Positions 5,654 through 46,742 of a DNA stretch of 48,866 bases are shown piece after piece (position 1 is the first letter of the stretch; each line of letters starts with the position of its first letter). The notes below the pieces were generated by a model that was not told the DNA's origin, searched no databases, and worked only from the letters and a program-made list of their open reading frames with translations. The stretch lies in NCBI GenBank assembly GCA_025454925.1, contig JALONM010000023.1:1-48866 (forward strand), in the 5' to 3' direction. The translations under genes and the position numbers were made by a program. Source of the stretch: Cytophagaceae bacterium (lineage in GTDB: Bacteria > Bacteroidota > Bacteroidia > Cytophagales > Cytophagaceae).

Positions 5654-6466
5654 ATGAAAACGTTGCGAAATTTTTTAATGGCTATATTGTTCATCGGTGG
5701 CCTGGGTTCTTGCACCGAGGTAATACAGGTAGATTTGGACGAAGATGCAAGTCGGGTAGTGGTAGAGGGCCTGGTGACCGACCGTTTGCATCCCTTTGAA
5801 GTGAAAGTGTCCAGGACAATTTCATTTAGCAATGAGTCCTTGCCTCCCACAGTGGACAATGCTACGGTAAGTATCTCAGATAATGCGGGAAATACATTTC
5901 CATTGACTTTCGTAAGCAAAGGGCTGTACACCACTTCTGGTCCTGTGCAGGGTGTTGTAGGAAGAATATATACGTTATCGGTTACTGTAGACGGGGTTAC
6001 CTATACCGCTTCCGATCAGTTGAATGCTATTCCTCCCATTGATTCAATGTATACTAAATTCCAGGAAGTAAGCGCCGTTATACCCACGGAAGGATATTAT
6101 GCTTACGCATCTTCAACAGATCCTCCCAATGAGCAAAATTATTATCAGTATAAATTCTATAAAAATGGCGAGCCAGTAGGAGGTACTAGTGGGATTTTTG
6201 TAAACGACGATCGGTTTTTGAGCAGTAGCATTTCAAATGTTCAATTGCCAGATATCTATGAAGTCGGGGATACCGTAAAAATGGAACAATTGGCATTAAG
6301 CCGCACCGCATACCTGTTCTACAGCGGACTGTTTTCGCAGCTCAACAACGATGGCGGATTTTTTAGTACTCCTCCGGCCAATGCGCCTACTAACCTGAGT
6401 GGTGGCGCTCTTGGTTTTTTCCAGGCTTCAGGTATAGCGTCAGATTCTGTGGTGGTAAAACCCTAA
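5654..6466 (+). CDS. DUF4249 family lipoprotein
   Basis: Protein of 270 residues with a lipoprotein signal (GGLGSC, lipid-anchored Cys near residue 20) and the DUF4249 pattern: an N-terminal beta domain beginning VIQVDLDEDASRVVVEGLVTD, then DNATVSISDNAGN and a Y-rich central part. Family function is unknown, but members are usually encoded directly after a TonB-dependent receptor, as here, so a surface or periplasmic partner of the receptor at 3236 is the best inference. Likely co-transcribed with it, with transcription ending at the strong hairpin at 6489-6536. Confidence 0.9.
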   Translation: MKTLRNFLMAILFIGGLGSCTEVIQVDLDEDASRVVVEGLVTDRLHPFEVKVSRTISFSNESLPPTVDNATVSISDNAGNTFPLTFVSKGLYTTSGPVQGVVGRIYTLSVTVDGVTYTASDQLNAIPPIDSMYTKFQEVSAVIPTEGYYAYASSTDPPNEQNYYQYKFYKNGEPVGGTSGIFVNDDRFLSSSISNVQLPDIYEVGDTVKMEQLALSRTAYLFYSGLFSQLNNDGGFFSTPPANAPTNLSGGALGFFQASGIASDSVVVKP

Positions 6467-6488
6467 TCGAAAATATCATTAATTAAGA

Positions 6489-6536
6489 AAATAGAAGAGC
6501 GACTGGAAAAATCTTTTCCCAGTCGCTCTTCTATTT
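6489..6536 (+). terminator. Intrinsic terminator after the TonB/DUF4249 operon
   Basis: An 18-bp perfect stem (arms 6489-6506 and 6519-6536) built around AGAAGAGCGACTGG and its complement, with an A/T-rich loop. The arms begin with A-rich and end with T-rich sequence, so it could work in both directions; the next gene on the minus strand ends 53 bp further on. Confidence 0.8.
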
Positions 6537-6588
6537 CATGCTTGAGCTAAATCAAACTCAATACTCAACCTCCAAGCTTGATACCGAA

Positions 6589-7335
6589 TTAGGTAAACAA
6601 GAGTTTGTATATCGCCACGGTTAACACGGTAGCTAATATCCATCGGAAGGCTTGGGTATTGTAACGACGACTTCCTGCATACGCACCCACGATAGCAGCA
6701 ATCCCAACCACTGCAAGAATGCTGAAAAGCTGTCCGCTCAATGGGGGCAAGGGATATCTTAAGCCTGCAAGTGCAGAACAAGAATTGAGAAGAATAAACG
6801 CCGCTGAGATGGATGCCGATTCTTTGGTATGACACCAACGAAAAAGCAGCAGTATCGGACTCAGTAGAATTCCACCTCCAATTCCTAATATGCCAGAAAT
6901 AAATCCTATGACAATGCCGGTGCCTATAAGCATCCATCCCTGGGGATTGTTCAGTGGTTTTTCCGCTTGATGGTAATTTCCTACTAAGAGCCAAAGCATG
7001 GAGAAAGCAAGAAAGGTCGCAAGTAAAATTTTATAGAAATGGTCCTGTACAGGCATGCCGCTTCCTGCATAAGCCGACGGTACTGAGCCGGCCAGCAGCC
7101 ACAGAAGCAATCGTGTCGATCCTCTTGCGTATCGAATAAAAAAATAAAATGCGATACTTGATGCCAGTATGTTTAGCAGCAGGGAATGTGGCTTGATAAA
7201 AGCTGCGTTCAAGCCTGCAATGGAAAATACCGCTACATAACCGGAGGCTCCTCCATGACCTACACTGGCGTATAGATAAGCCACGGCAAACAAGGCCAGC
7301 AACAAATAGAGATAAGCTTCTGAAGTAATCACCAT
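6589..7335 (-). CDS. TauE/SafE-family sulfite exporter/permease
   Basis: Inner-membrane protein of 248 residues with about seven to eight hydrophobic helices, matching the TauE/SafE (DUF81) family in length and in its two half-repeats: the N-terminal YASVGHGGASGYVAV motif and the central GFISGILGIGGGILLSPILL motif. Family members are thought to move sulfite, sulfoacetate or other organosulfur anions; the substrate here is unknown and no sulfur-metabolism gene is adjacent. The ATG at 7335 directly precedes the first membrane helix. Confidence 0.92.
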   Translation of the reverse strand: MVITSEAYLYLLLALFAVAYLYASVGHGGASGYVAVFSIAGLNAAFIKPHSLLLNILASSIAFYFFIRYARGSTRLLLWLLAGSVPSAYAGSGMPVQDHFYKILLATFLAFSMLWLLVGNYHQAEKPLNNPQGWMLIGTGIVIGFISGILGIGGGILLSPILLLFRWCHTKESASISAAFILLNSCSALAGLRYPLPPLSGQLFSILAVVGIAAIVGAYAGSRRYNTQAFRWILATVLTVAIYKLLFT

Positions 7336-7454
7336 AGTTCTCCTACCATTCCGTAAGGAAATTCAGGAATGCAATATACAGTGTTTAAAATATAATAGAG
7401 AGAAGATGGCTTGAGAATAGGGCACGTAATGATTGTGGGGAAGGATTTTTTCTG

Positions 7455-7706
7455 CTAGAGGTAATGGTCAATGTCGTCATCACCGAAGTAAAAAATTTTT
7501 TTTCGGTTTTTCAGTACTGAAAACGTGAGCAAACTATACAACAACAAGGAAATGATAAATACAAAAATGGCAAATACATTGCCCGGATGATCCTCTACAA
7601 AGTAGATATACTCCACAATGAGTACTCCAATTCCTAATAACAAAAAGATCAATGCGGAGATGCCAATGATCATTCTGTTTATTTTGGCTTCTTTTTGAGG
7701 TTCCAT
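7455..7706 (-). CDS. Small two-helix membrane protein
   Basis: Hypothetical protein of 83 residues: a charged N-terminus (MEPQKEAKINR), two hydrophobic helices (about 12-33 and 45-65) and a charged tail rich in Lys then Asp/His. ATG 7706 is chosen over a TTG at 7760 because the extra N-terminal residues look non-coding. It lies upstream of, and on the same strand as, the TauE/SafE gene, with a gap of about 120 bp. Function unknown. Confidence 0.65.
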   Translation of the reverse strand: MEPQKEAKINRMIIGISALIFLLLGIGVLIVEYIYFVEDHPGNVFAIFVFIISLLLYSLLTFSVLKNRKKIFYFGDDDIDHYL

Positions 7707-8187
7707 GAATCGTGATGCAGAATTGCCCTGTTTCAGTAAGGTAAGGCTGTGAAGGTACAAAGTTTCTATATGTTCTTGAAACGAAATAGGGGTTAATTTG
7801 TTACGAAATCGACAATTGGTAGGTTCTTGATCTAATTCAAAGCATAGATTTTATAACTATTCATCTTTTTTAATTTGCGAGATGCAATCCTTGATCAAAT
7901 TCAATGGTGTTTTGCCCTACGCAAGTTGGCAAGGTAATTACGTTCCACGCATAGATGCTATAAATCATAGCAAGACCATGTTCATTTTTTTACGAAATTT
8001 AAAGAAGTATTTTATTAGGAATCAGTAAATTAAAAATTTGTCCACATAGTTATTCCATAACTTGTTGAGAGAATGGGCATAGCTTATTTCAGGTGTTCCA
8101 CACAGAAACCGTAATTTAGTGCTCGATTCGGAAGGGATTTCAGGGTCGATTGGATACAAAGCATACTTATAACCACATATAAATAGG
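7707..8187. other. Long AT-rich intergenic region upstream of parA
   Basis: No supported ORF in about 480 bp. The part at 7981-8040 is very A/T-rich. A DnaA-box-like TTGTCCACA (one mismatch to TTATCCACA) lies at 8038-8046, and TGTTCCACA at 8094-8102 is a weaker match. This may simply be the promoter region of parA. Its position next to parAB makes a replication-origin role conceivable but unproven. Confidence 0.4.
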
Positions 8188-8967
8188 ATGGGAAAAATAA
8201 TTTCGATAGCAAATCAAAAGGGAGGGGTTGGCAAAACTACCACGGCTATTAACCTGGCAGCAAGTCTGGCAGCCCTGGAATTTAAAACCTTGTTGGTAGA
8301 TGGTGACCCACAGGCCAATTCTACTTCCGGTTTGGGACATAATCCTAAGGAAGTTACCAAAAGCATTTATGAATGTATGGTAGATGGATTAATGGCTTCG
8401 GAATGCGTGGTGCCCACCAACATCAACTACCTGGATTTGTTGCCAGCCCACATAGATCTGGTAGGTGCTGAAATCGAATTGATCCACCTGGAGGAGCGCG
8501 AATACCGAATGAAAAAATCGCTGGCTTCGGTAAAAGACCAGTATGATTTTATTCTGATCGATTGCAACCCCTCTCTGGGTTTAATTACTGTCAATGCACT
8601 TACGGCCTCCGATTCGGTGCTGGTTCCGGTGCAATGCGAATACTTTGCGTTGGAAGGGATTGCCCAACTGATGAATACCATAAAGATCGTTAAAGAAAAC
8701 ATCAATACAGCCCTGGAGATTGAAGGGGTATTGCTTACTATGTACGATCAGCGTGTGCGCTTGTGCAACATGGTAGTAGAAGAAGTGCGTAACCACTTCC
8801 AGGATCTGACCTTCGAGACCATTATTCCTAGAAATATCAAATTGAGTGAATCTCCGAGCTTTGGTTTACCGGTTATTGCGCACGATGCAGAAAGTAAAGG
8901 TGCCATTAGTTATCTGAACCTGGCCAACGAAATTCTAGAGCGCAACAAAATCAGCGTTCCGGCCTGA
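8188..8967 (+). CDS. parA: Chromosome-partitioning ATPase ParA/Soj
   Basis: ParA-type ATPase of 259 residues, the usual size of chromosomal Soj. It shows the deviant Walker A (KGGVGKTT, residues 11-18), the A' segment (LLVDGDPQANST) and Walker B (FILIDCNPSLG). It drives ParB-parS segregation by ATP-dependent DNA binding. There is no N-terminal HTH, which favours a chromosomal over a plasmid P1-type ParA. parB follows on the same strand with a gap of about 138 bp that holds a parS-like site. Confidence 0.97.
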   Translation: MGKIISIANQKGGVGKTTTAINLAASLAALEFKTLLVDGDPQANSTSGLGHNPKEVTKSIYECMVDGLMASECVVPTNINYLDLLPAHIDLVGAEIELIHLEEREYRMKKSLASVKDQYDFILIDCNPSLGLITVNALTASDSVLVPVQCEYFALEGIAQLMNTIKIVKENINTALEIEGVLLTMYDQRVRLCNMVVEEVRNHFQDLTFETIIPRNIKLSESPSFGLPVIAHDAESKGAISYLNLANEILERNKISVPA

Positions 8968-9038
8968 AAGGCTGCCGGTAAGGCCGGCAACGAATAAGAA
9001 CGAATTTATCAAACAAAACTTTACCATATTCGCTTGAT

Positions 9039-9054
9039 CGTTTCAGGTGGAACA
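9039..9054 (+). promoter_or_regulatory. parS: Candidate parS site between parA and parB
   Basis: The 16-mer CGTTTCAGGTGGAACA matches the widely conserved parS consensus TGTTNCACGTGAAACA at 13 of 16 positions (counting N) and keeps the imperfect dyad. Its place between parA and parB is where such sites often occur. One site only was seen; the match is imperfect, so treat as a candidate. Confidence 0.5.
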
Positions 9055-9105
9055 GAATGTTTTTCTCTATACGAATCGATCAAGCGGCCAAAATATAACC
9101 CTACT

Positions 9106-10011
9106 ATGATGTCTACAAAAAAACCTGCGCTCGGAAGAGGACTAGGAGCCTTGCTGAAGGATAGTGATAAAATGAAAACGGGCACCGACGTGAAAAGCGT
9201 AGTGGTAAATAACCTAAATGAAATACCCGTGGCCGATGTAGAAACCAATCCATTTCAGCCACGAACTCATTTTGATCAGGAAGCACTAAAAGAATTAGCA
9301 GAATCTATTCGTCTGCACGGCATAATTCAGCCCATTACCGTTCGTAAACTAAACGATACCCAGTATCAGCTAATTTCAGGGGAACGTCGTTTGCAAGCCT
9401 CTAAAATTGCCGGTCTGGAATTTATTCCCGCGTATGTGCGCACCGCCAACGACGAGCAAATGCTGGAAATGGGACTCATCGAAAACATTCAGCGTGAAGA
9501 CCTGAATGCCATGGAAATTGCCTTGAGTTACCAACGTTTGATCAGCGAATTTTCGTTGAAGCAGGAAGAGCTGGGAGATAAAGTCGGTAAAAATAGAACC
9601 ACTGTAAACAACTATTTACGTTTGCTTAAATTGCCGCCAGATATCCAGGCGGCATTGCGTGACGATGAAATTTCTATGGGTCATGCACGCGCCATTGTTA
9701 ATGTAGAGAACGCAGAAGACCAATTGGCCATTTTTAAACGCATTGTGAAAGAAGATCTCTCTGTGCGCAAAGTAGAAGAGTTGGTGCGTGAACTATCTCC
9801 TAACAAGGATAAAGTAAAAGCCAATCCGGTGAAAGAAAAAAAGTCACCTAGTAACGAAATTGTATTGCTTCAAGGTAAACTTTCTTCTCATTTTGGTACC
9901 AAAGTAAATCTTTCCCACGACAGTGCCTCCAGCAAAGGAGAAATCAAAATACCCTACGTTTCCACAGAGGACTTAAACCGTATTCTGGAAATTTTGAACA
10001 TCGGTTTGTAA
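9106..10011 (+). CDS. parB: Chromosome-partitioning protein ParB/Spo0J
   Basis: ParB CTPase/DNA-binding protein of 301 residues. It starts with the typical KPALGRGLGALL segment, then the ParB/Srx domain with the CTP-binding signatures (NPFQPR and GERRLQASKIAG), a central HTH (LGDKVGKNRTTVNNYLRLLKLP) and a C-terminal dimerisation region. ATG 9106 is chosen because the family start MSTKKPALGRGLGALL fits; a TTG at 9034 would overlap the parS-like site and add unrelated residues. It loads onto parS and spreads as a clamp, with ParA as partner. Confidence 0.97.
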   Translation: MMSTKKPALGRGLGALLKDSDKMKTGTDVKSVVVNNLNEIPVADVETNPFQPRTHFDQEALKELAESIRLHGIIQPITVRKLNDTQYQLISGERRLQASKIAGLEFIPAYVRTANDEQMLEMGLIENIQREDLNAMEIALSYQRLISEFSLKQEELGDKVGKNRTTVNNYLRLLKLPPDIQAALRDDEISMGHARAIVNVENAEDQLAIFKRIVKEDLSVRKVEELVRELSPNKDKVKANPVKEKKSPSNEIVLLQGKLSSHFGTKVNLSHDSASSKGEIKIPYVSTEDLNRILEILNIGL

Positions 10012-10029
10012 TCTCTTTTTAATGTTCAT

Positions 10030-10067
10030 TGCAAAGGCCACCAGAAGCAGTTCTGGTGGCCTTTGCA
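10030..10067 (+). terminator. Hairpin terminator after parB
   Basis: A 17-bp perfect stem (10030-10046 with 10051-10067) containing GGCCACCAGAA and a 4-base loop. There is no strong T-run after it. It sits between convergent parB and the minus-strand repeat-protein gene and may serve both. Confidence 0.7.
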
Positions 10068-10170
10068 TTGAACGGTACTGTATTTAATTTAATGACGTTT
10101 TACTTTAGCACATCTTTTGAAATAAAACGCACCGTGTGAATGGATAAAATGAATTAAGAAGTAGTTTTGA

Positions 10171-11379
10171 TTATTTTTCAATTACCATTTTGATAACTTC
10201 TTGATGATTTACCTGTTGACTCACCACGTAATACACTCCAGCCGCCCATGATGAAGCGTTTACTTCCAGGGTAGAAACATCCTGCTTGGAACATTGAAAG
10301 ACCAAATTCCCGATAGCATTATAAATCCAGACGTGCATGCCTTCTTCGGCTAACTGCATGGTAAAAACTCCAGCATTAGGGTTCGGCGAAAGCATAAAAA
10401 ATGTTTCCTGTCCACAATGACTTGAAATAGTTTGAAGATAATTTTGATTTTTATTCTTATCCACTTGTGAGAGGCGGTAAAATACTTCACCTTTTGAAGG
10501 ATTAATATCTGCAAAGCTGTAAGGTATAAATGAGTTACTGGCATGTTTTCCTTTTCGGGTGCCTATTTCGTGAAAGATTCCTGTGGGATCCGCTTTTTCA
10601 ATGATAAAAAAATTATTTTCCTGTTCAGAGGCTGTAGCCCATTGCAGATCAACTCTACCTTGTATGCATTGAGAGCTAAAGTACATCAATTGCACAGGCA
10701 ATGCGATGTTGCAGGATGTTACCGAAATTTCAAAATCGGCATGACCATCTTCCGATCCTCCATAAAAAGGATTGGCGCCTGTTGAAGAACAAAGAGAGGA
10801 AAGAATTTCATTGTCCGAGTGACCATCTTGCTCACCGCCAGCATAAGGATTAAAACCTTGAGGGGCACACAGCGTTTGAAGAATCGATAAATCGGCATGT
10901 CCATCGTGCTCGCCACCTGTATAAGGATTTACACCAGCGGGAATGCAAGAAGTTTGCAAGATTACCATGTCAGCATGACCATCCTCTTGTCCCCCATAAT
11001 ACGGATTCAATCCAAGGGGAGGGCACACAGACTGAATCACAGAGCCATCCGAAGAGCCATCCTCAATTCCTCCATAAAATGGATTTACTCCCAACGGAGA
11101 GCAAACACTATTCAGAATGGCGAGGTCTGATTGCCCATCCTCATGTCCACCCGAACATGGGTTCAGTCCGAGAGGAGCGCAAGTTAACTGAATGATGGAA
11201 CGTTCTGAGTGTCCTCCATGATTTCCACCAGAAAATGGATTGAGTCCCAGGGATGCACAAACCCCGTTAGAGATGAGTTGGTCAGCATTTCCTCCTTGCT
11301 CCCCACCAACAAATTGAGCAGGCATGTGTAAGCAGGCAAGCAGGAATGATCCAACGAATATAATTAGTTGAGTATTCAT
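10171..11379 (-). CDS. Secreted T9SS-type protein with eight 26-residue Cys/GG-DGH repeats
   Basis: Secreted protein of 402 residues. A signal peptide (residues 1-22, ending MPAQ) is followed by eight tandem repeats of 24-26 residues (about 23-228) of the form NP(Y/F)xGGxxDGHxDxxILxxxCxPxG, each with a single Cys. Next is an Ig/FN3-like domain beginning LPVQLMYFSSQ with DLQWATASEQENNFF, usual in T9SS cargo, and finally a type-A sorting domain (LSPNPNAGVFTMQL ... AAGVYYV ... IKMVIEK). The protein should cross the outer membrane via T9SS. Its ATG overlaps the stop codon of the upstream SUMF1-like gene by one base (TAATG), indicating translational coupling. The repeat function is unknown; the acidic GG-DGH core could bind metal, which is inference. 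Confidence 0.88.
   Translation of the reverse strand: MNTQLIIFVGSFLLACLHMPAQFVGGEQGGNADQLISNGVCASLGLNPFSGGNHGGHSERSIIQLTCAPLGLNPCSGGHEDGQSDLAILNSVCSPLGVNPFYGGIEDGSSDGSVIQSVCPPLGLNPYYGGQEDGHADMVILQTSCIPAGVNPYTGGEHDGHADLSILQTLCAPQGFNPYAGGEQDGHSDNEILSSLCSSTGANPFYGGSEDGHADFEISVTSCNIALPVQLMYFSSQCIQGRVDLQWATASEQENNFFIIEKADPTGIFHEIGTRKGKHASNSFIPYSFADINPSKGEVFYRLSQVDKNKNQNYLQTISSHCGQETFFMLSPNPNAGVFTMQLAEEGMHVWIYNAIGNLVFQCSKQDVSTLEVNASSWAAGVYYVVSQQVNHQEVIKMVIEK
10696..11313 (-). repeat. 78-bp coding tandem repeat (8 units)
   Basis: Within the gene above, eight in-frame units of about 78 bp encode 26-residue repeats. They have diverged at DNA level but conserve NP, GG, DGH/DGS, IL and C positions. The first unit is 24 residues and the last is degenerate at its end. 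Confidence 0.9.
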
Positions 11380-40211: not shown

Positions 40212-41684
40212 ATGGCTTGTTCATCATGCGGAACCGGTGGATGTGGTTCCAAAACAGGCGGTTGCGGTTCAAAAGGTGGTTGTTCTACCGGAGGTTGCGG
40301 AAAACTAAACTCCTACGATTGGTTGGGAGTGATGGAAATGGATGCTCCTTCGGCTTTCGATATAGTAGAGGTTAAATTTAAAGGCGGCAGAAAAGAGTTT
40401 TTTCGTAATGCAGATGCCCTTGCACTCTACACCGGCGATCCCGTAATCGTGGAAATGCCTACAGGGTATCACCTGGGCTATGTTTCCCTTCAAGGCGATA
40501 TTGTTCGACTTCAAATGAAGAAGAAAAATGTAGCCAATGACGAATCTATAAAAAAGATCCTTAGAGTCGCCAATCAGCGCGACATGGATAAGAATGTGCA
40601 ATCAATCAATCGGGAAAATCCTACGTTGTATCGCACCCGCGAAATGATCCGAGGATTAAAGCTAGAAATGAAGCTTACCGATATTGAATTCCAGGCGGAC
40701 AATACGAAAGCTACTTTTTACTATTCTGCCGACGAGCGCGTCGATTTCAGGGAGCTTATCAAAATGCTGGCCTCTGAGTTTAAAATCAGAGTGGAAATGA
40801 AGCAAATCAGTTTGCGGCAGGAAGCCAGCAGGTTAGGAGGGATTGGCTCTTGTGGAAGAGAGTTATGCTGTTCTACCTGGCTCACCGATTTTAAAAATGT
40901 AAATACTTCTGCAGCTCGCTATCAAAACCTGGCTCTAAATCCTTCTAAATTATCAGGACAATGCGGCAGGCTTAAATGTTGCCTCAATTACGAGTTGGAT
41001 ACGTATATGGAATCCCTGAAGGGAATTCCTGAGGTGGAAGGCCCCTTGCATACCGGGAGAGGAGAGGCCTTGCTTCAAAAAACGGACATCTTTAAACGGG
41101 TAATGTGGTTTTCCTATAGAGAAAGCGCAGACAGCAATTGGGTGCAGGTTTCTGTGGAAAGAGTCATGGAAATTCAACAGCAAAATAAAGAAGGTCGCAA
41201 GCCTGCTAATTTGCTGGAAGATGTAGAAGATCTTACCGAATCCAATCTTGAAATCAAACGTGAACGGGAAGAACTTTCTCGTTTCGACGACAAATTTTCA
41301 AGAAAAAAGAAGAAACGAAAAAAGCGTCCAAACAGCGGAACTACTGGGACCCAATTGCCTCAAGATGGTCCAAGGCCTCAGCGCAATTTGAATCAGCCTC
41401 CTAAAAATCAGGAAAAGTCATCGCAAGGTAACCAACAACCAAAGCCAAACCACCCCCCTAAAGGCCAACAAGGCAATAAGCCAGCCAAGCAACAAGGGGG
41501 TGAAAAGCAACATCAGAAAAATAACCAGGGGCCAAAACAACATCAGCACCCAAGACAGCAGTCTAACCAAAACCAAAAGCAGAATCCGAATCAAAAGCAG
41601 AATAACAAGCAAAACTCACAAAACGGACAAAATAATAACCAACCACGTAAACCTGAAAAGCAAGGTGGAGATACGAAAGAGTAA
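40212..41684 (+). CDS. ricT: PSP1/RicT-like protein with Cys-rich head and Q/N/K/P-rich tail
   Basis: 490 residues. Cys/Gly-rich start (CSSCGTGGCGSKTGGCGSKG ...), then KLNSYDWL, a PSP1 C-terminal domain (VEVKFKGGRKEFFRN; EMIRGLKLEMKLTDIEFQADNTKATFYYSADERVDFRELIKML) and a Cys cluster (GSCGRELCCSTWLTDF, GQCGRLKCCLNYE) typical of RicT/YaaT. In Bacillus the homologue belongs to an Fe-S complex influencing RNA processing; the role in Bacteroidota is less clear. About 110 C-terminal residues are a low-complexity Gln/Asn/Lys/Pro tail. The last 20 bp overlap gldH. Confidence 0.93.
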   Translation: MACSSCGTGGCGSKTGGCGSKGGCSTGGCGKLNSYDWLGVMEMDAPSAFDIVEVKFKGGRKEFFRNADALALYTGDPVIVEMPTGYHLGYVSLQGDIVRLQMKKKNVANDESIKKILRVANQRDMDKNVQSINRENPTLYRTREMIRGLKLEMKLTDIEFQADNTKATFYYSADERVDFRELIKMLASEFKIRVEMKQISLRQEASRLGGIGSCGRELCCSTWLTDFKNVNTSAARYQNLALNPSKLSGQCGRLKCCLNYELDTYMESLKGIPEVEGPLHTGRGEALLQKTDIFKRVMWFSYRESADSNWVQVSVERVMEIQQQNKEGRKPANLLEDVEDLTESNLEIKREREELSRFDDKFSRKKKKRKKRPNSGTTGTQLPQDGPRPQRNLNQPPKNQEKSSQGNQQPKPNHPPKGQQGNKPAKQQGGEKQHQKNNQGPKQHQHPRQQSNQNQKQNPNQKQNNKQNSQNGQNNNQPRKPEKQGGDTKE

Positions 41685-42165
41685 GTATTGGCTTCTGCTG
41701 CTGACCTTATTAATGGCCGCATGCAGTTCGGATGCCGTCGTAGATAAAATGGTTGACCTCCCTGAACATGGCTGGGAAGCAGTTCAACCTGTTAGCATTC
41801 CATTTGAAATTATGGATAAGAACAATGCGTTCAGAGTCTATTATTCCGGTCGCTACGATAATTCATATCCGTATTATAATTTGTATTTGTCGTGGCAATT
41901 CAAAGATTCTTCCGGAAAGGTGATCGCTTCTAGTAAGCAAGACAAGCCTTCCGGTATGAATTTGTTTGATCCGCAAAGTGGTATTCCAACAGGTAGAGGA
42001 ATGGCTGGTAAAAAAGATTTTCTGATTCTCGATACCAGCGTGGTCCCCGTTTTCCCTTACAATGGACCCTATACCATGGAGTTGAAGCAATACATGCGTG
42101 CAGATACTTTGGTGGGCATTTCTTCCGTAGGTATACGAATTGAAGCGATAAGCAAAGCTCCCTAA
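41665..42165 (+). CDS. gldH: Gliding motility lipoprotein GldH
   Basis: 167 residues: lipoprotein signal (SKYWLLLLTLLMAAC), then the GldH pattern: NNAFRVYYSGRYDNSYPYYNLYLSW, NLFDPQSGIPTGRG and YTMELKQYMRADTLVGISSVGIRIEAI. A lipoprotein required for gliding in Flavobacterium-type bacteria. No ATG suits; GTG at 41665 gives an ideal lipoprotein signal and overlaps ricT by 20 bp, while the longer reading frame upstream only shadows the ricT tail. It is coupled to the next gene by TAATG. Confidence 0.9.
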   Translation: MEIRKSKYWLLLLTLLMAACSSDAVVDKMVDLPEHGWEAVQPVSIPFEIMDKNNAFRVYYSGRYDNSYPYYNLYLSWQFKDSSGKVIASSKQDKPSGMNLFDPQSGIPTGRGMAGKKDFLILDTSVVPVFPYNGPYTMELKQYMRADTLVGISSVGIRIEAISKAP

Positions 42166-43514
42166 TGAACAACCTAAAGCCTTCTGCCAGTCCTCGCATT
42201 GATAGTTTGGATCTCGTAAGAGGTATTGTGATGGTTTTGATGCTGTTGGATCATGCGCGTGATTTTTTTCATCAGTACGCCATGGTCTATCAGCCCGAAG
42301 ATCTGACGCAAACAACGCCCATCATTTTTTTCTCACGCTGGGTCACTAATTTCTGTGCACCGGCTTTTGTGTTTCTGGCAGGAATTTCAGCATACTTATA
42401 TCAGCAAAAAGGCCGGAGTAGAAAAGACGTACAGCGATTTTTAATAAGTCGGGGATTATTTTTAATTCTTTTGGAAGAAACACTAATAAGCCTTGCCTGG
42501 CGCATGTCCATTGACCTTACCATCATTCGTGGACTTGTTATCTGGGCGCTTGGTTGGTCTATGTTGGCGCTAGCAGGTTTATTATTCCTTTCCCCCAAAG
42601 CCATATTAATTTCCTGCCTTTCGGTTTTATTATTTCATAATTTGCTGGACCCTGTACATTTTGACCATTCCATTCTTCAAGCTCTTTGGACTTTTTTACA
42701 CCAGGAAGGGAAAGTTGTTTTTCTTTCCGATCCCGAAAATCCGGCCTCTGTAGTATTTACTTGGCGTATGCTTTATCCGGTCTTACCAATGATAGCATTA
42801 ATGGGATTGGGGTACTGGATGGGAAAATGGTATCACAAAGATTTTAAAGCAGACATTCGTCAGGGAATGTTATTGAACACCGGACTTATTCTCATCTCTG
42901 CATTTATCTGCCTTCGCTTCATTCAATTCGTCATGCACCAGTACGATTACCATTTCCTGCTTTCTATGGAAGACGTAGTGAATGCCGGAGATTCAAATAA
43001 CGTGTGGTTGGTTAAAAAGGTAAAATGGTTTTGTAAGCAAAGCATGCATTACTTTTTTATGAATTTCGGAGATCCTGCTCCCATGGTCCCGCAGAATCAG
43101 GTGATGTATACATTTATGAGCTTTTTAACCGTTCACAAATATCCCTTTTCCTTGTTTTTTGTTTTGGTAACCATGGGGCCATTGTTGATTGTTTTATCCA
43201 TCCTTGAGAAACATAAATTGCCGGAGCGGCTACGTTCTGTAGTTAAAACGATAGGCTCGGTACCCTTGTTTTACTACATCGCCCACCTGTTCCTGTTGCG
43301 CCTTCTGGCAAGCTTGTATATACTAATTTTTCATACTGAAAAATTCTCTGAAATTATTAGGGCTCCCATTTCCGCCTTTTCTCCTATTATTTCTTTTAAT
43401 ATATTCATGGTATACGGTGTTACCTTATTGGGAGTAGCCTTGCTTTTCCCCTTGTGCCGTTGGTATGCCAACGCTAAAAAGAAGGGCAACCTCTGGATAT
43501 ATTCCTATATTTAG
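42165..43514 (+). CDS. HGSNAT/DUF1624-like multi-pass membrane protein
   Basis: 449 residues, around ten to eleven hydrophobic helices. The start PRIDSLDLVRGIVMVLMLLDHARDFF with a conserved Asp-His pair is typical of the heparan-alpha-glucosaminide N-acetyltransferase/DUF1624 family, which transfers acyl groups across membranes. No specific substrate can be assigned. The ATG overlaps the gldH stop by one base, so it is in the ricT-gldH operon. Confidence 0.9.
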   Translation: MNNLKPSASPRIDSLDLVRGIVMVLMLLDHARDFFHQYAMVYQPEDLTQTTPIIFFSRWVTNFCAPAFVFLAGISAYLYQQKGRSRKDVQRFLISRGLFLILLEETLISLAWRMSIDLTIIRGLVIWALGWSMLALAGLLFLSPKAILISCLSVLLFHNLLDPVHFDHSILQALWTFLHQEGKVVFLSDPENPASVVFTWRMLYPVLPMIALMGLGYWMGKWYHKDFKADIRQGMLLNTGLILISAFICLRFIQFVMHQYDYHFLLSMEDVVNAGDSNNVWLVKKVKWFCKQSMHYFFMNFGDPAPMVPQNQVMYTFMSFLTVHKYPFSLFFVLVTMGPLLIVLSILEKHKLPERLRSVVKTIGSVPLFYYIAHLFLLRLLASLYILIFHTEKFSEIIRAPISAFSPIISFNIFMVYGVTLLGVALLFPLCRWYANAKKKGNLWIYSYI

Positions 43515-43544: not shown

Positions 43545-45641
43545 ATGCTAACCTGTAGATCCTTTCGTCTTATTTTTATTGTAATGTCGGTAGTGTTAGG
43601 CTTGCTAAGTGCATGCAACAACAAACTGCAATCGGATAAAAAAGTAAAGTACATTGCCTATATCGGTCGATATACGGATCCTAAAGGAAACAAGCCACCC
43701 GAGCAGGTAAAGAAGTTCGACATGATGCATGAACTTACCCTGCGCAAATACCTTAGTGAAACAGAACTTCCCTATACGAAGTTAGAATTAAAGACCTTTG
43801 ATTGCCGAAGAGATCCAGCCGTCAGCGATTCAATTTATAAGGCCATTGCGGGTGACAGTTCTATTGTAGCTATCATCGACAATACCTGGGGAGAACACCT
43901 GAAAGGAGCTTCTGAAACTATTCGCAAAAATCAGTTGCCGGTAATTGCAATAAACGCAGACAGGAATTTACTGGATTTTGGAAATACGATTTTTACCGGC
44001 AATAACGATCATTTACCGCATGATTTGTTGTCGTTTGTTAGTAAGGTTAAAAAAACAAAAGAAATAAATTTTATCACCGAGAAAGATTATCCTGTACACG
44101 AGTTGTTTGTGAAATCATTTAGCGAGTATGGAATCAATGTAAGGAATACCATTGAGGTAGAAGGCAAAGGATTTGATGCAAAGGATTCCGTCGTTTTGTA
44201 TGACCAGTTGAATAAGGTTTTCTCAGATGTATCCAACCAGCGTCGCCTTACCATCATCAATGTGCATAGCTCAATAGGCAATCATCTTATCGATTACCTG
44301 GATACTAAGTTCTCAGAATTGCAGCTCTTGGGACATTCGTATATTGTAAATGCAGAACATATAAAACATTTTGGCGCGAAGAACAACAACAACCTGATCA
44401 TAGTGAGCACTCCTACAGACGCTATTTCCAAGCGCATGACACTTGATATTGAAAAGTTGAAAGCAAATTCACCGGAATATTTCCAGAACCCCAACCACCC
44501 CATGTTTGTAAAACGCTGTCTGGATGCAGTAGAATTAATTAAAAACAAATTTGAATACCAACCGGATACCACTACGCTTTCAAAAAGGGATTTTTCCACC
44601 TTTTTCAATTCTTTACGCAACCAGGTAATTTCAGAGGAAGATGAAATTTATGAATTCGATAGTCTACTAACCGTTTTGCCTGAGTTATACTTTGTGGAAT
44701 ACAGTGCTGGTAAATTACATTCTTATCCACTTCAGTTGAATCTGGATCGCGAAGTTATTCCGAATTTGTTTTTTGGAATGGAGATCGTAGATATCTATAA
44801 TATAGATGTGAACTCCAATTCCTTTACATCTGATTTTTATTATTGGGTGAAATTAGATTCTGCCAATAAGGATGCCGAAAAGTTTATCATATTTCAAAAC
44901 ATGAAACAGAACGAAAGTTCCCGTGAATTGATTTTTGAAAAGTTGGATGGACGCACCATCTACAAATTGTATAAAGTATCAGGGGTGTTTTATGTTAATT
45001 ACCAATTAGGCGAATACCCATTCGATCAACAGGAAATTTTTATTCGAGCTGAAATTTTAAATCCGGCTTCCAAACTAAAAGTTTCATTTGATCAAAAAAG
45101 TTTTCAGCTGGATGCCAAAGCCATCGAAAAATTTAAAATCAACGAATGGGATAAATTAAAATACTACGTTACCGTAGAGAATGAAGTAGCACGCGGTATG
45201 CACGGTGACCCCGATATCGATGAAGAAAAATTAAGTGAATTTAAGAATATTAATTTCAGACTGGTCGTAAAGCGTAAAGTGGTATCCCCACTGCTCGAAA
45301 TCGTTTTGCCACTAATGTTGATTGGTTTAGTATCCATTGCTTTATTCCTGGTACACGACGTTTCGTTCGAAAATCTAGGGGAAGTTTCTATTGGTGTTTT
45401 CATCACCATAGTAGCGTTTTCAATTTCGTATTCAAGTTCTACCCCTACCACCGACCATTTAACACGAGCCGATATCTTATTCTGGCTCACGTTCTCCGTC
45501 GTCTTGTTAAACTTCTTGATTGTAATTATCGTTAACTCCATTTACCCTCCGGAAGAGGCTAAAAAAATCGATCTGAGACGCGTCGGTATTTTTATGGTGA
45601 TTGCGTATATTGCCATGGTTTGTTGGGCTCTATTGGCATAA
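43545..45641 (+). CDS. Type-1 periplasmic-binding-protein / pentameric ligand-gated ion channel fusion
   Basis: 698 residues. A lipoprotein-like signal (GLLSAC) precedes a type-1 periplasmic binding domain (about 30-370: SIVAIIDNTWGEHLKGASET; INFITEKDYPVHELFVKSF). Next is a Cys-loop-type extracellular beta-sandwich (about 385-550, with VDIYNIDVNSNSFTSDFYYW and the loop YPFDQQ at 491-496, lacking the Cys pair as in bacterial channels), then four helices: M1 (VVSPLLEIVLPLMLIGLVSI), M2 (ENLGEVSIGVFITIVAFSIS), M3 and a final M4. M2 aligns without gaps to GLIC as I recall it, with Glu609 at the -2' position, suggesting cation selectivity. A ligand caught by the binding domain may gate the channel; this is inference. 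Confidence 0.92.
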   Translation: MLTCRSFRLIFIVMSVVLGLLSACNNKLQSDKKVKYIAYIGRYTDPKGNKPPEQVKKFDMMHELTLRKYLSETELPYTKLELKTFDCRRDPAVSDSIYKAIAGDSSIVAIIDNTWGEHLKGASETIRKNQLPVIAINADRNLLDFGNTIFTGNNDHLPHDLLSFVSKVKKTKEINFITEKDYPVHELFVKSFSEYGINVRNTIEVEGKGFDAKDSVVLYDQLNKVFSDVSNQRRLTIINVHSSIGNHLIDYLDTKFSELQLLGHSYIVNAEHIKHFGAKNNNNLIIVSTPTDAISKRMTLDIEKLKANSPEYFQNPNHPMFVKRCLDAVELIKNKFEYQPDTTTLSKRDFSTFFNSLRNQVISEEDEIYEFDSLLTVLPELYFVEYSAGKLHSYPLQLNLDREVIPNLFFGMEIVDIYNIDVNSNSFTSDFYYWVKLDSANKDAEKFIIFQNMKQNESSRELIFEKLDGRTIYKLYKVSGVFYVNYQLGEYPFDQQEIFIRAEILNPASKLKVSFDQKSFQLDAKAIEKFKINEWDKLKYYVTVENEVARGMHGDPDIDEEKLSEFKNINFRLVVKRKVVSPLLEIVLPLMLIGLVSIALFLVHDVSFENLGEVSIGVFITIVAFSISYSSSTPTTDHLTRADILFWLTFSVVLLNFLIVIIVNSIYPPEEAKKIDLRRVGIFMVIAYIAMVCWALLA

Positions 45642-45647
45642 AAATAA

Positions 45648-46742
45648 ATGGAACACCTCGTTAGATATAAAGAATTAGTAACATTTACCCATCGTGTATT
45701 TTTAGGCATGGGTTGCTCTGAACAAGATGCCGCGCTTGCTTCGGAAGTATTAATTTCAGCTGACCTCAGGGGCATAGACTCTCATGGTGTCGCCAGATTG
45801 TCGGGATATCTGAGATTATGGGAAGCAGGACGAATAAATCCTACACCTCAAGTTAAAATAGTACATGAGTCCCCTTCTACCGCCGTAGTCGATGGCGACA
45901 GCGGATTGGGTTTGGTGGTAGCGCCTAAGGCAATGCAAATAGCTATTGAAAAAGCCAGACAGGCTGGAACTGGTTGGGTTTCTGTTAAAAATTCCAACCA
46001 CTTCGGGATTGCTGGCTACCACGCCATGATGGCACTCGCGCACGATATGATCGGCATGTCCATGACTAACGCAAGTCCTTTGGTAGCGCCTACCTTTGCT
46101 ACCGAAAGAATGTTGGGTACTAATCCTATTGCTGTAGCCATACCCGCAGGTCAGCAACCCCCATACGTTGCAGACTTTGCTACCACCACAGCTGCGAATG
46201 GCAAGCTCGAGATTTTGCAACGCAAAGGCACCGATGCTCCAATTGGCTGGATTCAGGACAAAACAGGAAACGATACCGTAAATCCCCACGAATTAAAAAA
46301 TGGTGGAGCCTTACTTCCATTGGGAAGTGATCGTGAACATGGCAGTCATAAAGGATATTGCCTTGGCTCAGTAGTAGATATTTTTTCGGCCGTGCTCTCC
46401 GGGGCAAATTATGGACCTTGGGTTCCGCCTTTTGTTAGCTTTCTTCCGCTTCCTGCTGATCCGGTAGGACAAGGTATTGGTCATTTCTTCGGAGCCATGC
46501 GCATCGACGCATTTCGCAGCGCCGAAGAATTTAAACAACACATGGACAATTGGATTGGGCGTTTTAGAAGCGCCAAGGCCGTGGAAGGGAAATCTGTACT
46601 TATTCCAGGGGATCCTGAGCGCGAAATGCAAGCCGGGCGCATTCATAATGGAATACCTTTGCTCACACCTGTCCTCGAGGATTTAAAAGCTGTGGGCGCA
46701 AAATTAAACGTTCAGTTCCCAGAACATGTAGAAATATCCTAA
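45648..46742 (+). CDS. Malate/L-lactate/ureidoglycolate dehydrogenase (Ldh_2 family)
   Basis: 364 residues with the Ldh_2 fold motifs: SADLRGIDSHGVARLSGYL, VDGDSGLGLVVAPKAM, VKNSNHFGIAGYHAMMAL, GTNPIAVAIPA and HKGYCLGSVVDIFSAVLSGA. NAD(P)-dependent oxidation of 2-hydroxy acids; the exact substrate cannot be read. Starts 6 bp after the channel gene stop, so probably co-transcribed, but no functional link is evident. Confidence 0.95.
   Translation: MEHLVRYKELVTFTHRVFLGMGCSEQDAALASEVLISADLRGIDSHGVARLSGYLRLWEAGRINPTPQVKIVHESPSTAVVDGDSGLGLVVAPKAMQIAIEKARQAGTGWVSVKNSNHFGIAGYHAMMALAHDMIGMSMTNASPLVAPTFATERMLGTNPIAVAIPAGQQPPYVADFATTTAANGKLEILQRKGTDAPIGWIQDKTGNDTVNPHELKNGGALLPLGSDREHGSHKGYCLGSVVDIFSAVLSGANYGPWVPPFVSFLPLPADPVGQGIGHFFGAMRIDAFRSAEEFKQHMDNWIGRFRSAKAVEGKSVLIPGDPEREMQAGRIHNGIPLLTPVLEDLKAVGAKLNVQFPEHVEIS

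Follow-up and report, generated by a model that had tools for sequence, protein, structure and literature searches.

A predicted Venus flytrap domain fused to a predicted pentameric ligand-gated ion channel subunit, conserved within the Bacteroidota

What the bacterial homologues of neurotransmitter receptors contribute to the cell has long been asked, and according to a 2016 paper not a single pentameric ligand-gated ion channel (pLGIC) of a unicellular organism has a known biological role (PMC4795631). One gene in a 48,866-nucleotide stretch of DNA from a Cytophagaceae bacterium (contig JALONM010000023.1, assembly GCA_025454925.1; hereafter the window) encodes a product that appears to carry a periplasmic solute-binding domain of the Venus flytrap type on a pLGIC subunit. 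Such a fusion offers a natural experiment on the way in which an additional flytrap can drive a channel of the Cys-loop type, and it makes the role of a bacterial pLGIC directly testable, because the soluble flytrap can be expressed and screened for ligands alone. The features of the locus are collected in Table 1.

Table 1. Features of the fusion gene and its neighbours, in window coordinates
Feature	Position	Strand	Basis or remark
PSP1-domain gene, head of shared neighbourhood	40212..41684	+	Pfam, neighbourhood comparison
gldH (GldH_lipo, E 2.3e-22)	41500..42165	+	Pfam
Membrane acyltransferase-like gene (HGSNAT_cat, Pfam E 1.7e-10)	42165..43514	+	Ends 30 bp before fusion gene
PBP-I/pLGIC fusion CDS (P0001)	43545..45641	+	Intact ORF, 698 aa
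N-terminal hydrophobic segment, residues 1-27	43545..43625	+	Sequence, hydropathy
Predicted type-I periplasmic-binding (Venus flytrap) domain, residues 32-394	43638..44726	+	Pfam, AlphaFold2, Foldseek, VIA-align
Flytrap/beta-sandwich junction, residues 395-420	44727..44804	+	16-row orthologue alignment
Predicted pLGIC extracellular (periplasmic) beta-sandwich, residues 404-577, start overlapping junction	44754..45275	+	phmmer, AlphaFold2, Foldseek
Pro-loop YPFD, residues 491-494, at Cys-loop position without cysteines	45015..45026	+	Alignment
Predicted four-helix transmembrane domain, residues 578-698	45276..45638	+	AlphaFold2 model
M2 acidic residues Glu609 (-2') and Glu613 (2')	45369..45383	+	M2 alignments
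Malate/lactate dehydrogenase family gene (Ldh_2)	45648..46742	+	6 bp downstream of fusion gene

The fusion gene begins with ATG and has no internal stop. An earlier note on this DNA had read its product as a type-I periplasmic-binding (PBP-I) fold joined to a complete pLGIC subunit in one protein, and on this the reading frame, AlphaFold2, Foldseek and phmmer agree. The AlphaFold2 model of the full protein (20 aligned sequences) has a mean pLDDT of 82.0 and a pTM of 0.72. When AlphaFold2 models were searched with Foldseek, the N-terminal half matched the PBP-I fold and the channel half matched pLGICs, as the note expected. Its two domains also stand; its limits for them, 30-370 and 385-698, give way to the slightly wider ones of the model, 32-394 and 404-698. 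For this protein both folds are predictions, shown by computation.

The best phmmer match of the channel part was DeCLIC (E 7.4e-6), with GLIC-type and ELIC chains near 1e-5; Foldseek returned ELIC and GLIC chains at E values of about 1e-14 (TM by target 0.57-0.63) and matched DeCLIC as well. AlphaFold2, Foldseek and phmmer together point to a beta-sandwich followed by four transmembrane helices, which the model places at 582-602 (M1), 608-632 (M2), 641-666 (M3) and 678-697 (M4). An absolutely conserved Pro-loop proline and an Asp that pairs with a pre-M1 Arg mark pLGICs (PMC4795631). The corresponding residues P492, D494 and R577 are each present in all 44 rows of a channel alignment made up of 16 orthologues of the fusion protein, six proteins of a second fusion group (see below) and 22 simple pLGICs of the order. 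The M1 kink proline, P589, is found in 16/16 orthologues and 6/6 second-group proteins, and is Gly in all 22 simple pLGICs.

The results with Pfam and NCBIfam indicate that the fusion proteins are poorly visible to standard annotation. The Pfam Neur_chan models (PF02931, PF02932) did not match the window's protein at E <=1, and none of 20 fusion proteins was matched by Pfam channel models at E <=0.1. The NCBIfam model LGIC_1 reached E 9.1e-8 on the window's protein, with 31.8 bits against a cut-off of 500. Accepted prokaryotic members often go unmatched as well, and PF02931 left the simple pLGIC of the window's own genome (G000) unmatched. Used to survey five genomes, PF02931 picked up simple pLGICs in G002 and G003 and none of the fusions; it had no matches in 14 control genomes.

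For the flytrap part, Pfam Peripla_BP_6 matched residues 79-192 at E 5.8e-4 (20.1 bits against a curated cut-off of 31.7) and matched 19 of the 20 fusion proteins at E <=0.1. Modelled alone (16 sequences), the domain reached a mean pLDDT of 86.8 and a pTM of 0.83. Foldseek matched the flytrap part to LivJ/LivK-type binding proteins at E values of about 1e-15 to 1e-16, and the domain alone matched 3td9 at E 1.8e-16. VIA-align gave Z 27.5, rmsd 3.4 and 331 aligned for the domain alone against 3hut, and aligned residues 32-409 with the N-terminal flytraps of mGluR, taste receptors and AMPA/kainate receptors (Z 25.6-27.9). The mGluR and taste-receptor matches that fill the VIA-align list are taken as fold likeness only, and the list for the whole protein barely tests the channel half, for which Foldseek and phmmer are the evidence. 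Foldseek and VIA-align of the predicted model thus both find a two-lobed type-I flytrap fold in residues 32-394. A likeness of residues 131-160 (43935-44024; INADxN...FTGxxD) to the N-terminus of LptD was set aside, as it is weak (E 0.07 and weaker), involves another fold and is probably due to chance.

Some hints about the ligand come from comparison with LivJ/LivK (1z15, 3td9, 4gnr), which share the fold of residues 32-394 at only about 12-16% identity in structural alignments. Gly116 and Asp139, both invariant in 16/16 orthologues, align with Ser79 and Thr102 of LivJ in a weak HMM alignment to 4gnr (i-E-value 0.039 for the stretch), in which we assume that the residues of E. coli LivJ carry over to 4gnr, the streptococcal LivJ. 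In LivJ these two residues contact the amino acid, according to docking (PMC6983066), and their apparent replacement by Gly and Asp would weakly disfavour a LivJ-type alpha-amino acid as ligand. The further polar residues of the flytrap that are invariant among the 16 orthologues are rich in acids (D112, N113, W115, N137, N141, D155, E179, D181, Y182, H241, H264, Y266 and D292). Our guess, made with low confidence, is that the ligand may not be a LivJ-type alpha-amino acid and that an amine, another cation or a polyol is likelier.

That fusions of this kind had been mentioned for some bacteria is correct: in 2004 Tasneem et al. described pLGICs of Magnetospirillum and Bradyrhizobium that carry a fused PBP-I domain (PMC549065). 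The PBP-I/pLGIC kind has been known since then, and the Cytophaga-group protein is a variant of it. The earlier proteins, as described there, also have an N-terminal PBP-I domain and a complete pLGIC core; they differ in belonging to Alphaproteobacteria, and are likened here by description, not by sequence. The same paper gives Cytophaga hutchinsonii three pLGICs, one of them simple, and names MCP-N/Cache fusions for Cytophaga (PMC549065). A search of the titles and abstract starts of open-licence papers found no study of a PBP-type pLGIC, a flytrap-gated one included, which agrees with the earlier statement that ligand and physiology of such fusions are unreported, as far as the open-licence papers searched are concerned.

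Among characterized channels, DeCLIC (6v4a, 7q3g, 9eva) resembles the fusion protein in having a large N-terminal domain on a pLGIC core, and in a Glu that the phmmer alignment places opposite E613, directly after a two-residue gap. Its pore is described with two acidic rings (PMC9897478), and the channel is activated by calcium depletion (PMC9897478, PMC12664993). The N-terminal domain of DeCLIC, however, consists of two jelly-roll lobes and contains no flytrap (PMC9897478, PMC12664993); this different domain also lies beside the beta-sandwich (PMC9897478), as we propose below for the flytrap. A 2025 paper calls DeCLIC the only pLGIC with a partially characterised N-terminal domain (PMC12664993). 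ELIC and GLIC share with the fusion protein the fold, the Pro-loop, the pre-M1 Arg and an acidic residue near the inner mouth, whereas in place of E613 ELIC has Gln and the GLIC-type 4yeu has Thr; to our knowledge neither ELIC nor GLIC carries an extra domain. The flytraps of iGluR and mGluR have the same fold and likewise form the N-terminal part of a channel or receptor, but that channel or receptor is of a different class from pLGICs and the resemblance is one of working only.

A scan of genome_contigs (84,980 species by description) with six short peptide patterns identified nine orthologues, all titled Bacteroidota, with best segments 58-68% identical to the window's protein; Cytophaga aurantiaca DSM 3654 was among them. 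In searches that each counted the window's own genome, full-length matches were found in 10 of 19 genomes of the family (any match in 14 of 19), 12 of 390 in the order sample (any match in 55 of 390), 5 of 395 in the class sample (any match in 8) and 1 of 395 in the phylum sample, namely the window's own (any match in 10). After exclusion of second copies with identical translations (L001, L012, L014-L019, L048-L050), and leaving out a further long-frame match, G370, we obtained 16 distinct full-length orthologues including the window, all from the window's phylum, the other 15 being 43-68% identical to it. Both domains are kept in 16/16, so the fusion that the note had proposed to survey in homologues is indeed conserved. 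For the whole protein, pS ranged from 0.63 to 0.88 and pN from 0.04 to 0.21 in six pairs (raw proportions are quoted because most dS values were saturated), and pN was lower in the channel part than in the PBP part in 6/6 pairs. Purifying selection is strong on both domains. With both domains kept in 16 orthologues and pN far below pS in every pair, the fusion is not a chance product; it is real and conserved within the phylum.

The order sample also contained a second fusion group, seven frames of 705-739 residues in six genomes of one other family, which match the window's protein in the channel part only. We read six of these proteins, from five genomes, and four were among the 20 scanned with Pfam. 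One of them, L033, passes the Peripla_BP_6 cut-off with 56.8 bits, and the domain layout of the group resembles that of the window's fusion. In a tree of the channel part the 16 orthologues lie on one side of a branch with support 99/98, the six second-group proteins are grouped with support 100/99, and both fusion groups together (16 + 6) are split from the 22 simple pLGICs of the order with support 100/99. The tree has no root and long main inner branches, and the tree program flagged long branches in the rows of simple pLGICs. These groupings fit a single fusion lineage in the sampled genomes. A profile comparison of the two PBP parts gave no convincing match between them (E 0.023, probability 2%), so that a shared origin of the fusion groups would rest on the channel part.

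The pore helix has several features that set the orthologues apart. Against the GLIC-type M2 of chimera 4yeu, which we take to be that of GLIC, the window's M2 aligns gaplessly, after a two-residue gap that precedes M2; the gapless register claimed earlier therefore holds and places E609 at -2', E613 at 2' and I620 at 9'. As M2 is helical from residue 608 in the AlphaFold2 model, the two acids would lie about one turn apart. At 2', Glu is present in 16/16 orthologues, Ala in 6/6 second-group proteins, and Gly or Ala in 22/22 simple pLGICs. At -2', Glu or Asp is present in 14/16 orthologues (Gly in the other two), 6/6 second-group proteins and 21/22 simple pLGICs. On these alignments the 2' acid appears to be the invariant family feature and the -2' acid the dispensable one. 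The extra acidic ring at 2', called unusual in the earlier note, is uncommon but not unique, since DeCLIC has Glu at the aligned position. The basic residue at 0' is found in 20/22 simple pLGICs and in none of the 16 orthologues or six second-group proteins, four of which have Glu at 1'. A basic 0' residue occurs in 79% of the pLGIC superfamily (PMC4795631) and hence is common, not defining. At 9' the orthologues have Met (9), Ile (3), Leu (3) or Phe (1). The invariant 2' Glu and the lack of a basic 0' residue support, from sequence only, the earlier prediction of a cation channel, and a cation-selective pore is likely.

The residues of the ordinary agonist site, between subunits of the beta-sandwich, present a mixed picture. 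Column 553 in the loop C region is Phe or Tyr in 22/22 simple pLGICs; among the 16 orthologues it is Tyr in three and His, Arg or Lys in the rest, and it is aromatic in none of the six second-group proteins. Column 566, which from our reading of the alignment we take to be Phe188 of ELIC, is Phe or Tyr in 16/16 orthologues, 4/6 second-group proteins and 22/22 simple pLGICs. Trp434 is present in 16/16 orthologues and 22/22 simple pLGICs and falls in a gap in 6/6 second-group proteins; Glu503 and Trp535 are invariant in the 16 orthologues. Judged by these residues the fusions seem to have lost the ordinary agonist site in part and not altogether, and the aromatic residue at 566 in every orthologue means that it is not clearly dead.

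The junction between the two domains aligns without a gap in the 16 orthologues, and 11 of its 26 positions are invariant. The corresponding counts are 63 of 363 for the flytrap, 47 of 157 for the remaining beta-sandwich and 11 of 27 for M2. Its conservation is about that of M2, and 58 of 673 windows of the same length, overlapping ones included, score as high or higher. The absence of gaps and the high invariance favour a rigid link over a floppy tether. At the other end of the flytrap, the N-terminal segment of the window's protein reads as a lipoprotein signal, with a lipobox-like LLSAC at residues 20-24 (Cys24 codon 43614-43616, read by eye). The anchor region has 0/31 invariant letters across the 16 orthologues, yet its anchor nature is kept. 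A spacer of about 8-16 residues leads from the anchor to the first strand. The pLGIC beta-sandwich is about 60 angstrom high, and if the anchor lies in the inner membrane this spacer is too short to pass it; the flytrap would then probably sit beside the channel beta-sandwich, not stacked on top.

From these observations we lean towards a reading in which the gene supplies the subunit of an inner-membrane cation channel built from five identical copies, each with a periplasmic Venus flytrap solute sensor. The N-terminus would be held in the inner membrane, by lipid in the window's protein and by a helix in some orthologues. A small solute would bind between the flytrap lobes, and lobe closure would be passed through the short, conserved junction of fixed length to the first beta-sandwich strand, whose movement would open the pore; cations would then flow in and change the membrane potential or ion gradients. 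A more detailed version, which we put forward only tentatively and consider less likely than not, describes a lineage of flytrap-gated pentameric channels with both ends anchored in the inner membrane, in which the flytrap lies beside the channel and pulls through a rigid junction, the agonist site is partly given up and the charge filter is centred on 2'. If this were true, the sensing logic of iGluRs would have been built on a Cys-loop-type channel.

The flytrap might merely concentrate the solute or modulate kinetics, while the trigger would bind, as in ELIC, at the ordinary beta-sandwich site between subunits and the pore would open without flytrap closure. We regard this as rather unlikely, although some observations speak for it. 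Tasneem et al. suggested that domains of this kind have a preliminary role in concentrating or sensing (PMC549065), and in DeCLIC the N-terminal domain seems to accelerate gating, with no clear role beyond that (PMC12664993). Conservation is higher in the channel part than in the PBP part, with mean column identities of 74% and 60%, and in the orthologues the residues at 434, 503 and 535 are invariant and 566 stays Phe or Tyr. The loss of the loop C aromatic at 553 from most orthologues and from the whole second group argues against a trigger at that site, and a junction as conserved as the pore helix fits mechanical coupling. A different arrangement, in which the lipid anchor lies in the outer membrane and the channel in the inner membrane, so that the protein bridges the envelope and senses its state, would accord with the lipobox-like Cys that ends the N-terminal segment in 9/16 orthologues, the window's included. 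It is nevertheless very improbable, because an anchor-like segment takes its place in 7/16 orthologues and in 6/6 second-group proteins read. Hydrophobic helices are not expected in the outer membrane. These anchor counts come from reading the termini by eye, the lipobox pattern having missed L003 and L011 and been misplaced in L020; exchange between the two anchors need not be frequent, as the seven anchor-segment forms and two lipobox forms share one part of the tree.

The gene neighbourhood bears on a conceivable link of the protein, through gldH and the adjacent acyltransferase gene, to gliding or surface functions. The order PSP1, gldH, (DUF4919 in seven), acyltransferase, fusion is found at 9/16 loci including the window, and the spacing between the acyltransferase and fusion genes at these nine is 1 to 54 bases. 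In the window the gldH reading frame begins inside the PSP1 gene, so its true start is probably further in. No such block surrounds the fusion gene at the other seven loci, among them that of the closest relative, L003 (68% identical), and the fusion protein is thus kept without it; L069 has a weak gldH-like match (26-28% identity) more than 3 kb from the fusion gene and none of the other block genes. Genes for GldH and PSP1 are common across the phylum, and their order may simply be inherited. The adjacency to gldH and the acyltransferase, taken earlier as a clue to a surface-linked sensory role, therefore does not serve as one: it is weak evidence of function, a feature of the lineage and not functional proof, and a gliding or surface role seems to us very improbable. 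No conserved operon hints at the ligand either: the downstream genes Ldh_2, M48 and DUF2480 were unmatched in the 15 other loci (tblastn E <=1e-3).

Several of the genomes carry more than one pLGIC gene. The window's genome has a second, simple pLGIC of 373 aa on contig C79 (L002, 1369-2487, minus strand), next to a gene whose sequence, judged by eye, resembles a bifunctional hisB. Simple and fusion genes co-occur in G000, G002, G003, G004, G010 and G066; the matches in G003 are one PBP fusion and one simple pLGIC gene. At L073 two second-group fusion genes stand in tandem (6014-8152 and 8217-10352, 64 bp between), and a hetero-pentamer of their products is possible. A survey of plasmids contained no fusion; P0001 had two partial matches in Streptomyces, and L033 had two matches confined to the PBP part. 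On the Streptomyces plasmid NZ_CP106796.1 (L077, 2243-3379), a 378-aa protein annotated as hypothetical has 27% identity to fusion residues 411-619, and is likely to be a simple pLGIC on a Gram-positive plasmid.
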